From the NCBI GenBank assembly GCA_017462755.1, contig JAFTQM010000011.1, positions 1 to 43,234 of the forward strand: DNA of 43,234 nt, read 5' to 3'. The translations under genes and the position numbers were made by a program. Shown here one piece after another: positions 2,040 through 6,179 of the stretch; positions within the stretch are counted from its first letter, which is position 1; every line of letters begins with the position of its first letter. The notes under the pieces are model-generated. The model was not told where the DNA came from, searched no databases, and was given only the letters and a program-made list of their open reading frames with translations. The DNA is from Lachnospiraceae bacterium (GTDB lineage: Bacteria; Bacillota; Clostridia; Lachnospirales; Lachnospiraceae).

Positions 2040-4481
2040 TTATCGAACTATTGTTGTAGTATATTTATCCCAATCATCCTCCCACCTAAAACCAATTTCT
2101 TGATACATCATTTTTAGTGCATTTAAACGAATTGCATAACTGCTATATCCATTTTTTCCTGGCAAAAAAATCTCTTCATCTAAGGTTATCACAATATCTT
2201 TATCTAAATTAGCAATATCGCTTTCATTTTGTAGTGCAATATCATCTTTGTACTTTTTCAAAATATATTTAACTGTATAATTTGTACCTATACTACATCT
2301 ACTTTTATAAAAATTCGCATTATCTTCATACTTGTCAGCATACGATGCATCGGCCCACCAGCGGATATCTCTAAATTCTACCACTCCATTTTCAACCCCC
2401 ACCACAAAACATTCCCAACATCTATGCGTACATGCTTTGGATGATTTTCCTGCATTAGGATTTCCTGTTTCCGAATCTTCTGCTAATGTTATTCTATTAT
2501 ATGCTTTTTCTGCCACTTTACTAAGGGAGCATGCAATTCCATTTGAAAAATGATTAGAATTAAAATAATTATCTGTAATTGCACTTTCTATTTCTTTTGA
2601 CACCACCTTGTCAGTAGCATTTCTTGGCAATACAGAGCGATGCGCATATACATCTCCAGCTAAATGAAGCGCCGCTCCAAGTATTTTATATGCATTTGCT
2701 TCTGCTGTTGTTTGATCAGTAATTCCTGACACCTTTCCTACTGACAGTTCAAGCAACTTCTTTGTTCTGCTCACGAAAGTATCGGTAATCTCTACGGAAT
2801 TATTTTTTTTCATTACCTCAGCAATAGCGCTTACCTTTTCTTGCTGTTTTTCCACATCTGCATCCGGCATATTTTTCAATGCAACCGCAACCTTATACAA
2901 GAAAATCAAATCGTTTACATAATTATCCATATGCCTTTCTGTTCTACTACCATAATTTCTTCCAGAATGTAAATTCGCAAATTCTGGTCCTGATTTAAAA
3001 TTAGCATTAGTATCCACATATTTTGATACTTTCTTCATTAACGTAAGATATTTGGTTGGATATACCGTTGGTGAAACCTCCTTTCCTTGATCAATCGACG
3101 AGTCATGACCATCATCCGACCATAATCCCTCCACATATCCCGGTTCCTCGCCTACGACATACTCCTCGGTATTCTCCACGATTCCTGCATACTCGGATAC
3201 CCCCGGTACATACTCTGCCTCAAATTCCTCATAGATTTCAAAGGCGTGCTGTACATCCAGCAGACCGTTTCCGTACTCCCCAGTCGAGGTACTCAGCCTG
3301 CGGTTTGCAGAGGCATTCAGCAGCTGGCGGATGAAATCACTGCTCTTCGTCATATCCTTTGCCCAGAGCAGCGCTGCTGCTCCTGCGACGTGCGGTGCCG
3401 CTACACTGGTGCCGCTCACCGCCATTGTACCACCATAAAAACTGTCTGACAATACACATTCGCCCGGTGCCATTAACTCTAACGTAGCTCCGGTTGCAGA
3501 AAACTCTGCGCGGTTGCCCTGATAATCCGTAGCACCTACTGCGATAACCTCCGGATATGCTGCCGGATATTCTACCACACCGCTGTTACCGGCTGCCGCC
3601 ACCATCAGGATGCCTGCTTCTTCTGCTGCCTGAATTGCCTGATGCAGCGCATAGGAATTAACCGTCGTACCAAAGCTCATATTGAGGATATGGATATCGT
3701 TATCAATCGCCCAATAGATACCCTCGATGATGCGGCTGATTGGTGCAGTGTTCGAGTAGTCAAACACCTTGACCGAATACATCGTAACATCCGGTGCGAC
3801 ACCCACGATACCTTCATTGTCGTCGTTCGCCGCCAGCACACCTGCTACCGCTGTACCGTGACCGGTACCATCCTCATCGAACGTGATAATATCCTGCTCC
3901 TCTGCAACCAGATTGATGTACTCCGCTACATCCAAATCCTCACAGACACTGGTACCCGAATCAAGCACTGCCACACGCACCTGACTCTCATCCGTCGGAT
4001 ATGCTGCCAAATCCTCCGGCGTTGCATTTACCGCCGTCAGATTCCATTCATAGGTCTTCTCTTCCTCCGCTTCCGGCTTGGTCAAATCCTCCAGATTCAC
4101 AATGATATCGTCATCATAAACATAATCATAGTCATAATCGTGGTCGTGTCCGTGACCCTTTCTCGCCATTGCAGTAACGATAATATCCTCTTCCACAGAT
4201 ACTACCTGTTCATCCTGCGCAAGCTCTGCTGCCTCGGCTGCCGTCATCGGCAACACCAGATAACCACGCTCCGGCTCGGTACTTGCTTCCGTCTCCGATG
4301 TCCTTGCCAAAGCATACGATGCCGCAGAATAGGTAGCAGCTCCGGCTGCATCCTCACGCATCACAACCAAGTAATTCTTTACCTCCGTATCCTCTGCCAA
4401 AGCCTTTGCAGCAGGTGTTGCGAGAGATGTTGTCATTGCAAACACCAAAGCACCGGATAAAAGTCTCTTATATTTTTTCAT
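2040..4481 (-). CDS. Secreted subtilisin-like serine protease (S8) with an extra helical C-terminal region
   Basis: 813 residues from ATG 4481, chosen because CAGGAGGTTATA directly precedes it; the frame is open 138 bp further upstream, but that stretch overlaps the next gene. A signal peptide (1-30) leads into an inhibitor-I9-like propeptide (about 36-105) and a His/Asp/Tyr-rich spacer (HGHDHDYDYDYVYDDD, 110-125). The catalytic domain has Asp174 (VAVLDSGT), His209 (GHGTAVAG), oxyanion Asn299 (AAAGNSG) and Ser359 (GTSVAAPH), so it should be active. From about residue 475 a 330-residue, mostly helical region follows, with RHMDNYVND and HLAGDVYAH (H606, D610, H614), recalling alpha-helical Zn phospholipase C/S1-P1 folds; that assignment is weak. 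It is the last gene of a possible sigma factor-secreted protein-protease unit. Confidence 0.88.
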   Translation of the reverse strand: MKKYKRLLSGALVFAMTTSLATPAAKALAEDTEVKNYLVVMREDAAGAATYSAASYALARTSETEASTEPERGYLVLPMTAAEAAELAQDEQVVSVEEDIIVTAMARKGHGHDHDYDYDYVYDDDIIVNLEDLTKPEAEEEKTYEWNLTAVNATPEDLAAYPTDESQVRVAVLDSGTSVCEDLDVAEYINLVAEEQDIITFDEDGTGHGTAVAGVLAANDDNEGIVGVAPDVTMYSVKVFDYSNTAPISRIIEGIYWAIDNDIHILNMSFGTTVNSYALHQAIQAAEEAGILMVAAAGNSGVVEYPAAYPEVIAVGATDYQGNRAEFSATGATLELMAPGECVLSDSFYGGTMAVSGTSVAAPHVAGAAALLWAKDMTKSSDFIRQLLNASANRRLSTSTGEYGNGLLDVQHAFEIYEEFEAEYVPGVSEYAGIVENTEEYVVGEEPGYVEGLWSDDGHDSSIDQGKEVSPTVYPTKYLTLMKKVSKYVDTNANFKSGPEFANLHSGRNYGSRTERHMDNYVNDLIFLYKVAVALKNMPDADVEKQQEKVSAIAEVMKKNNSVEITDTFVSRTKKLLELSVGKVSGITDQTTAEANAYKILGAALHLAGDVYAHRSVLPRNATDKVVSKEIESAITDNYFNSNHFSNGIACSLSKVAEKAYNRITLAEDSETGNPNAGKSSKACTHRCWECFVVGVENGVVEFRDIRWWADASYADKYEDNANFYKSRCSIGTNYTVKYILKKYKDDIALQNESDIANLDKDIVITLDEEIFLPGKNGYSSYAIRLNALKMMYQEIGFRWEDDWDKYTTTIVR

Positions 4482-4535
4482 TATAACCTCCTGTTTTTCA
4501 CTGTCTTTTGGGAACAGACAAAATAAGAGGTCTGC

Positions 4536-4570
4536 CAGTACAGACCGCCTCATTTCGTCTGTCTGTACTG
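4536..4570 (-). repeat. Inverted repeat between the small secreted gene and the protease gene
   Basis: CAGTACAGAC at 4536-4545 and GTCTGTACTG at 4561-4570 are perfect 10-bp arms with a 15-nt loop. The left arm on the minus strand overlaps the end of the gene at 4573-4989, and CTTATTTTGT follows a short way downstream. It may act as a weak terminator, attenuator or processing hairpin ahead of the protease gene. Confidence 0.5.
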
Positions 4571-4572
4571 TG

Positions 4573-4989
4573 TTACGTTGTAAGTTGACATCTTTGACTA
4601 ATGGTCTCACTAACACCATTAGATACTACGGTGGCTACTACCATCAGTGTATAAGTACAGTTTTCTTTTACTGCACAGCTTTTGATTGCATTCAAGTATT
4701 CTTTCGTTGTCCGTATGCCGGACCAAGTCTCATCTACAATAACTTTTCCCTTATCTGACACACCCTTCAGATACATCGTCATGTAAATCTCGGTCGTTCC
4801 GTCTTGTCCTCGCACTCTAGCAACGCAACATACCTGACCTCCTTCCACAACCAGCTTCGTTCTTAATGCATCAGATTGCAACAGATATGCTTGTGCATCC
4901 GATGCAAACGTGCTTACACAAGGTTGTCCCGCAAGGAATGCAGCAACGAACAGAAATACTATCACAATACGCTTTTTCCTCTTTCGCAT
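4573..4989 (-). CDS. Small secreted protein of unknown function
   Basis: 138 residues. A clear signal peptide (MRKRKKRIVIVFLFVAAFLA..., cleavage probably after TFA) is followed by a compact, probably beta-rich 110-residue domain with alternating hydrophobic strands (TKLVVEGGQVCCVARVRG, TYTLMVVATVVSNG) and four mature-region cysteines: the CC pair, one in SCAVKENC counted with its partner, plus RCQL near the end. I do not recognise the family. A very strong purine run (GGGGGGGAG) precedes the ATG. The gene lies 102 bp downstream of the sigma factor/sensor gene and 91 bp upstream of the protease, all on one strand, so a joint role is plausible but unproven. Confidence 0.65.
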   Translation of the reverse strand: MRKRKKRIVIVFLFVAAFLAGQPCVSTFASDAQAYLLQSDALRTKLVVEGGQVCCVARVRGQDGTTEIYMTMYLKGVSDKGKVIVDETWSGIRTTKEYLNAIKSCAVKENCTYTLMVVATVVSNGVSETISQRCQLTT

Positions 4990-5091: not shown

Positions 5092-6099
5092 TTATTTTTT
5101 AATTATTTTCATGCCCTCTACAATCCGCTGTATGGTCTCTCTGTCTTCTACTGCGTGCAAGAAATACAAATAACCGTTTTCTTCCCACATCCATATTGCA
5201 GAACCATCCAAGTCCTCCATGATATCAATCTGCCGTCCGCTTATCTGACAATGCTCTATTGTTCGGTAATCCGTATCTATGATACTTCCCATACTGCCGT
5301 TGAGCGGTAAGGTATCCACAGTCAACACTTTACCATCCTGTCTACGGTATGCCAAAAAAAATCCCAATACCTCATGCCGCTCCTCATATTCCAGCGTATA
5401 CCCTTCCGGCAAATAGGTAAACTCGGTCAGATGAACACCTGCTACTGTCTCCACACCTGACTCGTAGCTATTTACCTCCACATAACCATCTCCATACGTC
5501 GTTTCATGACTCAAAAGATAAAAGTGATTCTCTACTGCCTGAATGACACAGGTTGTGATGCATGTCAAACTGCATATTAAAATAATCACACCAAGCAACT
5601 GCTTGCCCGGCATCATTTCTCTCAGCATAGCTAAACCACGCTTTAGGCGCACATCTACCGTATTCCGCTTCAAATCCAATTTCTGTGCAATTTCTATCGG
5701 TTTTTGCTGCTCCTGATAGCAAAGTCGAATAACCTGACGATAGCGAACCGGCAATTCATCCACCAATTGCCAGAGTCCTTTTTTCCGCTCCTGCTGCAAT
5801 ACCAGCTCCTCCGGATTTTCCTCTGACGAAGCCGGTAACACAACCTGTTCTGTCCAATCGCATACCTGTTCTCTCTGCATGCATCTCTTTTTGTCAATTG
5901 CCTGATTCCGTACAGCTACTAACAAATATGCTTTCTGTTCTTCTGCAGACAGCTTCGTCAGTACTTCCTCTCGTCCAAGCACGTTACACAACACTGTTTG
6001 CACAATATCTTCTGCATAGTCTCCTGCGATTCTTTTTGCTTCTCTATATAGTAATGCATAAATATCCGGCGTACACCATTCCACATCGTATTTTCTCAT
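5092..6099 (-). CDS. ECF-type sigma factor fused to a transmembrane helix and an extracytoplasmic DUF4367-like domain
   Basis: 335 residues in one uninterrupted frame. Residues about 10-75 match sigma-70 region 2 (YREAKRIAGDYAEDIVQTVL, AYLLVAVRNQAIDKKR) and 105-160 match region 4 (LPVRYRQVIRLCYQEQ...IEIAQKLDLKRNTVDVRLKRG, the helix-turn-helix). A single transmembrane helix follows at 168-188, itself with three cysteines. An outside domain from about 220 to 335 (FTYLPEGYTLEYEE, SAIWMWEENGYLYFLHA, IVEGMKII) looks like DUF4367, which usually sits in separate anti-sigma/sensor proteins. No separate anti-sigma gene is adjacent. The predicted product is a membrane-tethered transcription factor that would need proteolytic release or would act from the membrane. 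A TATAAT-like box lies at 6130-6135, about 30 bp upstream of the ATG. Confidence 0.85.
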   Translation of the reverse strand: MRKYDVEWCTPDIYALLYREAKRIAGDYAEDIVQTVLCNVLGREEVLTKLSAEEQKAYLLVAVRNQAIDKKRCMQREQVCDWTEQVVLPASSEENPEELVLQQERKKGLWQLVDELPVRYRQVIRLCYQEQQKPIEIAQKLDLKRNTVDVRLKRGLAMLREMMPGKQLLGVIILICSLTCITTCVIQAVENHFYLLSHETTYGDGYVEVNSYESGVETVAGVHLTEFTYLPEGYTLEYEERHEVLGFFLAYRRQDGKVLTVDTLPLNGSMGSIIDTDYRTIEHCQISGRQIDIMEDLDGSAIWMWEENGYLYFLHAVEDRETIQRIVEGMKIIKK

Positions 6100-6179
6100 T
6101 TCCCCTTTTCTCCCGTTTCTTAATCTTTTATTATACTAGCACGATTCCCTCCTATTATCAACATATATTTACTTTTCGA

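Follow-up and report, generated by a model that had tools for sequence, protein, structure and literature searches.

A single-chain ECF sigma factor with its own transmembrane helix and DUF4367 ectodomain in Lachnospiraceae: a candidate for release by intramembrane proteolysis

In a Lachnospiraceae bacterium (GenBank assembly GCA_017462755.1, contig JAFTQM010000011.1), a single protein joins an ECF sigma factor, a transmembrane (TM) helix and a DUF4367 ectodomain. That this is a tethered sigma factor with an ectodomain of its own is well supported by its domains, its topology and its recurrence. We propose it as a candidate ECF sigma factor that is tethered by its own TM helix, gated by its ectodomain and probably freed by intramembrane proteolysis. 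Ectodomain control and proteolytic release are suggested by homology with separate DUF4367 proteins, by a juxtamembrane site and by the precedent of IutY in Pseudomonas putida. The window, i.e. the whole stretch of DNA that was analysed, is 43,234 nucleotides long.

The original prediction was of one continuous 335-codon frame with sigma regions, a TM segment and an extracytoplasmic DUF4367-like domain, and it is borne out by the frame, which is open throughout with no internal stops, by Pfam/NCBIfam matches, and by hydropathy and charge. In profile searches, both Sigma70_r4_2 and DUF4367 (PF14285; gathering score 22.1) exceed their cut-offs, the latter in the C-terminal half, where it had been expected. 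Sigma70_r2 falls just short, which is compensated by the NCBIfam sigma70-ECF model spanning residues 14–163 (70.4 bits versus a cut-off of 42.9). With sigma regions 2 and 4 only, and the ECF model above cut-off, the protein has the profile of an ECF (group 4) sigma factor. Its highest hydrophobic peak (mean Kyte-Doolittle 2.65) lies at residues 168–186, close to the predicted 168–188. The 15 residues before the TM helix contain four Lys/Arg and one Asp/Glu, and the 15 after it no Lys/Arg and two Asp/Glu. This excess of positive charge before the helix indicates an N-in/C-out topology, which by the positive-inside rule places the sigma domains inside the cell and the DUF4367 domain outside. The linker between the region 4 match and the TM helix is only eight residues long and the sigma factor is in the same open reading frame (ORF), so the fusion does not have the two-part layout of a sigma factor with a separate membrane anti-sigma protein.

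Table 1. Coordinates of the fusion gene, its domains and neighbouring features in the window
Feature	Position	Strand	Evidence or remark
Sigma-TM-DUF4367 fusion gene, 335 aa	5092..6099	-	Single frame; Pfam/NCBIfam matches
Sigma region 2, residues 15–75	5875..6057	-	Sigma70_r2, 22.0 bits (cut-off 24); NCBIfam sigma70-ECF
Sigma region 4, residues 109–159	5623..5775	-	Pfam Sigma70_r4_2, 45.8 bits (cut-off 25.7)
TM helix, residues 168–186	5542..5598	-	Hydropathy and charge bias; DNA coordinates derived from the residue numbering
Signal-peptidase-I-like site IQA|V, residues 186–188	5536..5544	-	Pattern test
DUF4367 ectodomain, residues 226–330	5110..5424	-	Pfam, 48.3 bits; also genome search
Sigma-A-like promoter, TTGATA-17-TAGTAT with TG	6133..6161	-	33 bases before fusion start codon; consensus scan; weak
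Predicted RNA hairpin over companion RBS and start codon	4985..5075	-	Fold z -5.6; 0/200 shuffles as low
DUF6147-like small secreted protein gene, 138 aa	4573..4989	-	Iterated HMM; association counts
Long hairpin	4513-4563		Terminator-like at 4529-4546, between DUF6147-like and S8 protease genes
Secreted S8 (subtilase) protease gene	2040..4619	-	Pfam Peptidase_S8; downstream, behind terminator-like hairpin

DUF4367 usually occurs in separate proteins, and is found in 137 of the 397 genomes of the family and 98 of the 299 of the phylum that were scanned. A genome search identified two further DUF4367 genes in the source genome itself. One (L022) has the ordinary layout, i.e. a gene for a 192-aa sigma factor followed by one for a 238-aa protein with a cytoplasmic segment, a TM helix and DUF4367. 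The other (L023, on contig C99), upstream of which no sigma gene was found and behind which lies a DUF6147-like gene, is perhaps an orphan regulator. A sigma ORF lies upstream in 20 of 33 DUF4367 rows, at distances from a 65-base overlap to a 28-base gap; among the other 13, two are the fusion locus itself and 11 have no sigma ORF found, and two of the loci (L046 and L053) represent one gene. In the phylum, 29 of 30 DUF4367 loci have a separate sigma ORF. The largest overlap is seen at L026/L027, where the DUF4367 protein has an unusually long cytoplasmic part of 172 residues; Pfam gave no support to a suspected sigma-4-like stretch in L026.

The separate proteins differ from the fusion in what precedes the membrane. 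We compared 90 distinct ORFs for separate DUF4367 proteins in which the TM helix is clear and whose starts were assigned mechanically. A median of 79 residues precede the helix, and 85 of these ORFs have at least 45; in the 37 separate ORFs used for the tree described below, the range is 51–172 (median 71). The remaining five of the 90 have 0–40 residues, and a short cytoplasmic part is thus not unique to fusions, although one of the five (L042) probably owes its short N terminus to a wrong start. In all six fusions that we know of (see below), the TM helix begins 3–8 residues past the region 4 match (eight here, 3–7 in the five others), which leaves no segment of the kind that could hold a sigma factor in a separate protein. 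To judge by gene order and length, this cytoplasmic segment of the separate proteins presumably binds sigma; in the three that were scanned (L022, L046 and L026) it has no Pfam domain.

A search for the same fusion in other Lachnospiraceae, which the original prediction had called for, returned one genome out of 397, its own (E ≤1e-6, with at most five candidates scored per genome), and the only full-length match among 41 relatives was likewise its own genome. The class sample also yielded only the source genome (1/391, E ≤1e-8). In the order sample, however, five of 392 genomes carry a fusion (E ≤1e-8), namely the source genome and four Defluviitaleaceae with five copies. Among named genomes, a scan with the fusion protein as query detected no copies, and one with Defluviitaleaceae fusions as queries brought out the five corresponding loci (L150–L154). 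The five fusions are found in four of 38 Defluviitaleaceae genomes, on five contigs, all from MAGs. Their ectodomains score below the DUF4367 cut-off of 22.1 (21.9, 20.3, 18.7 and 16.3 bits, and no match for the fifth) but are tied to DUF4367 by the ectodomain tree.

Because the DUF4367 profile is blind to these five ectodomains, a length-based search was added. Among 147 distinct sigma ORFs, at least 60 residues with a hydrophobic peak behind the sigma domains occur only in the six fusions and in two other proteins, L207 and L209. The latter came to light among nine long-frame sigma hits that were opened, and are sigma-TM proteins of the same family without DUF4367; of the other seven, five (L205, L206, L208, L212 and L213) end without any substantial extension after sigma, and in two (L210 and L211) the part after sigma contains no TM helix. 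No ORF with both sigma and DUF4367 was found at 20 long-frame DUF4367 places of the family and 20 of the phylum, and hence no other sigma-DUF4367 fusion among the loci inspected (family, L022–L052 plus these 20; phylum, L155–L184 plus these 20). L207 (G271:C66, positions 874-1797, 307 aa) consists of sigma, ∼75 residues with an Hx3Cx2C motif, and then a TM helix, whereas L209 (G021:C355, positions 586-2106, 506 aa) begins with a zinc-ribbon-like part, which is followed by sigma and by a long tail that includes hydrophobic segments. Hx3Cx2C is described as a zinc anti-sigma signature in the excerpted text of PMC7406223. Both proteins thus share with the fusion an ECF sigma factor and a TM helix in one chain, but L207 keeps a cytoplasmic Hx3Cx2C segment before the membrane and the long tail of L209 lacks DUF4367. 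Their presence in the same family makes the DUF4367 fusion one of several such inventions.

We built trees of 134 sigma domains and of 44 TM+ectodomain halves. In the sigma tree, the five Defluviitaleaceae fusions group together as a clade, with L144 (100/98) as its sister; L144 is a split pair in one of the genomes that carry these fusions. The Lachnospiraceae fusion stands away from this clade on a long branch. The ectodomain tree recovers the same sister relation to L144 (99/94) for the Defluviitaleaceae fusions, which here have a further protein (L140) in their midst. It groups the Lachnospiraceae fusion with the split protein L054 (96/75), with a program warning about the meeting of two long branches. 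Since the close relatives of the Defluviitaleaceae fusions include a split pair, fusion probably happened twice, a reading that sequence comparison favours without proving. A single origin of all six is weakly rejected by the ectodomain tree (AU p 0.037, from a run in which the bootstrap had not settled) and is not rejected by the sigma tree (p 0.263). An alignment combining the fusion with the separate halves failed to match the halves correctly and did not serve as a profile. L140 (G579:C38, positions 1019-2136) has a TM+ectodomain part very like the fused ones and retains the last region 4 helix (LKRAREKMKKKIG), yet the ECF sigma gene that it follows is a different one and lies in another frame; apparently the sigma part was swapped and the gene split again.

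At the outer end of the TM helix, 40 of 44 TM+ectodomain rows, the fusion included, display [AVTSI]xA, which is how a type I signal peptidase site looks; 1000 span-shuffled controls gave 22.8 such rows on average and never more than 31, although the rows share descent and the count therefore overstates their independence. The site reads IQA|V in the Lachnospiraceae fusion and VRA|A in all five Defluviitaleaceae fusions. IQA|V is a short motif with the small residues expected at −3 and −1, its −3 Ile being acceptable by the rule used rather than the canonical Ala. According to the excerpted text of PMC8844934, signal peptidases make the site-1 cut in the anti-sigma proteins RsiV and RsiP, and RasP makes the site-2 cut. 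One M50 protease and two S26 proteases are encoded in the source genome; because these families are common in control genomes (14/14 and 11/14, respectively), their presence is compatible with release but not specific to it.

We propose the following sequence of events. An ordinary sigma/DUF4367 gene pair would have been fused, with loss of the cytoplasmic, presumably sigma-binding, segment. The tether alone, holding region 4 ∼8 residues from the bilayer, would block productive work of the sigma factor with RNA polymerase. A signal at the ectodomain would then expose IQA|V just outside the membrane to a site-1 cut, after which a RasP/RseP-type site-2 protease would cut within the TM helix and free the sigma factor for its putative targets. 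Such a release would require no extra degradation of an anti-sigma fragment. The closest precedent is IutY, a sigma-TM-periplasmic hybrid in which, according to excerpts of PMC5411451, cleavage by Prc and then RseP yields the active sigma factor. The same excerpts state that TM-containing IutY truncations are fully RseP-dependent and that the tethered truncations are undetectable in an rseP mutant, so that tethering and instability are not fully separated even there.

Alternatively, the sigma factor might be active while anchored, with the ectodomain altering its conformation or oligomeric state and RNA polymerase being recruited to the membrane. CadC/ToxR-type regulators do work while membrane-anchored, and no anti-sigma domain remains in the fusion that could sequester sigma. 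The original prediction had offered this route beside proteolytic release. We consider it the less likely of the two, and unlikely overall, because a region 4 only 3–8 residues from the membrane in six of six fusions would leave little room for a promoter-bound holoenzyme, a cleavage-like site is retained, and tethered IutY requires RseP.

Somewhat less probable still is that the sigma part is degenerate or has no function with polymerase, in which case the protein would be a membrane sensor or a decoy. The sigma domain does have an unusual letter make-up and a long branch (2.44 in the sigma tree), which together with the sub-threshold region 2 may point to an altered sigma function. On the other hand, the ECF model is above cut-off across the sigma part and region 4 is strong. 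In the five Defluviitaleaceae fusions, moreover, region 2 passes the Pfam cut-off (5/5) and sigma is the best conserved segment in each of the ten pairwise comparisons (tied with or above TM), with 56–72% for sigma, 42–57% for TM and 37–57% for the ectodomain.

It is improbable that the ectodomain is a mere anchor rather than a signal receiver, with activity set by transcription or constitutive turnover. The sigma-A-like promoter just upstream would fit such a reading, but sites of this kind are no more numerous around the fusion than in shuffles (10 found versus 11.2 expected), and DUF4367 is retained not only in the fusion but also in many separate TM proteins encoded next to sigma genes. 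A regular-expression search detected no ECF-type promoter motif in eight upstream stretches (of the fusion, the companion gene, the protease gene and the five other fusions), which leaves autoregulation unsupported.

Finally, although the source genome is a fragmented MAG (99 contigs, 81.7% complete) and the genus and family samples yielded no full-length relative, an artefact of sequencing, assembly or binning that joined two genes, the frameshift or assembly error against which the original prediction had warned, is very improbable, because a lost stop or frameshift in an ordinary pair would normally keep the cytoplasmic N terminus of the partner, which is missing here, the frame is open, and the same anatomy is found on five contigs of four other MAGs.

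The genomic surroundings agree with the original prediction in that the fusion gene has no separate anti-sigma gene beside it. Genes for HU, S4, YabP, YabQ and DivIC, all in the orientation of the fusion, lie upstream. Downstream are a gene for a DUF6147-like secreted protein (hereafter the companion) and then one for an S8 protease, whose membership in the transcription unit of the fusion is uncertain. The C-terminal stretch of this protease, ∼400 residues, has no Pfam match above cut-off.

The companion protein has no Pfam match of its own above cut-off (none to PF19644, DUF6147). Of nine relatives scanned, three (L047, L042 and L033) match DUF6147 with 40.1–43.7 bits versus a cut-off of 24 and six do not match. 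The companion itself is joined to this family only by an iterated HMM. We seeded the profile with three secreted proteins (from the fusion locus, L023 and L145). The first round detected such a gene in 14 of 31 DUF4367 loci of the family (L023 being a seed), seven of 30 of the phylum, and none of 45 control loci, which had been fetched by sigma similarity. After iteration on the same loci, the numbers were 20/31, 12/30 and 0/45, respectively. Two loci with DUF4367 genes (L053 and L054) had been excluded from the controls. In the 45 that were kept, our own profile saw no DUF4367 gene, but one of them (L055) has one by Pfam.

Among the 20 family loci, the distance is available for 17, and in 16 of these the companion starts 10–169 bases behind the DUF4367 gene and in one at 797 bases. 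Among the 12 phylum loci, it lies directly behind the DUF4367 gene in seven and on the other strand or upstream in five. Sequence comparison of these loci (L022–L052 and L155–L184) suggests that DUF4367, DUF6147-like and sigma genes constitute an unnamed three-gene module, in which the companion may be an output, a ligand or a co-sensor. The predicted hairpin in the gap behind the fusion gene makes translational control of the companion possible. With the iterated profile, no DUF6147-like gene was found at the five Defluviitaleaceae fusion loci. Other small proteins trail all five of these fusions and the split pair L144, with DUF3879-like matches in L152, at cut-off in L144 and weakly in L151. 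Several of the trailing small proteins, which belong to different families, end alike (FDATV, FDVTV, FNTTV, FSTSV and VNAVV).

Compared with known systems, the fusion resembles IutY (ECF243) in having a cytosolic ECF sigma factor, one TM helix and a C-terminal extracytoplasmic domain in one chain. It differs from IutY by its DUF4367 ectodomain, its Bacillota host and a site 1 that appears to be signal-peptidase-like rather than Prc-type. Excerpts of PMC9249621 describe the IutY ectodomain as FecR-like and answering to a TonB-dependent receptor, and in those of PMC5411451 a variant ending at residue 168 corresponds to the sigma domain alone; no Pfam match to FecR was found in the fusion protein at E up to 1. 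The actinobacterial groups ECF52 (SCO4117), ECF48 and ECF53 also combine an ECF sigma factor with a C-terminal extension containing TM. According to the excerpted texts of PMC5826349 and PMC8999054, these have other ectodomains and, separating sigma from TM, a zinc-finger domain that is likely an anti-sigma domain; at this place the fusion, unlike them, has its short linker and no zinc-finger match by Pfam.

The sigmaV-RsiV and sigmaP-RsiP systems of Bacillus share with the fusion a signal-peptidase or signal-peptidase-like site 1 outside the TM helix of a membrane regulator, but RsiV and RsiP are separate anti-sigma proteins with other ectodomains. Separate sigma/DUF4367 pairs of Bacillota share the TM helix, the DUF4367 ectodomain and the signal-peptidase-like site, but are encoded by two genes, with sigma mostly directly upstream, and usually have at least 45 cytoplasmic residues before the membrane. 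Pro-sigmaK of Bacillus subtilis is tethered by an N-terminal pro-sequence, is not an ECF factor and has no sensor ectodomain. Like the proposed mode of the fusion, however, its activation has an intramembrane protease acting on the sigma factor itself (PMC6242693 and PMC12632252).

An ECF sigma factor with its own TM helix and ectodomain but no cytoplasmic anti-sigma domain is already known from IutY. Within the literature searched, the novelty lies in an ectodomain of the DUF4367 type, a host in Bacillota, a site 1 that is likely cut by signal peptidase, and recurrence beside close split relatives. Neither DUF4367 nor DUF6147 is named in any open-access paper searched, a search outside which lay the 2021 ECF classification, reportedly by Casas-Pastor et al.

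A wider reading, which we put forward only tentatively, is that sigma-TM-sensor proteins without any anti-sigma domain arose several times, with two origins in a single bacterial order and another in IutY, because an ECF sigma factor can be silenced by tethering alone. Signal peptidase would then be the site-1 switch of the DUF4367 versions, and the DUF6147-like secreted neighbour would gate the cut as partner or ligand. The fusions, which are directly comparable with the related split pair L144, offer a natural experiment on the question of whether tethering suffices for an ECF sigma factor or a sequestering anti-sigma domain is required. They extend the principle of IutY to Bacillota with a different sensor domain, and they suggest that two Pfam domains without a known function, DUF4367 and DUF6147, belong to a single envelope module that is widespread and associated with sigma factors. 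Here, one chain would do the work that usually takes two proteins, in a design that recurs in a second, related bacterial family.
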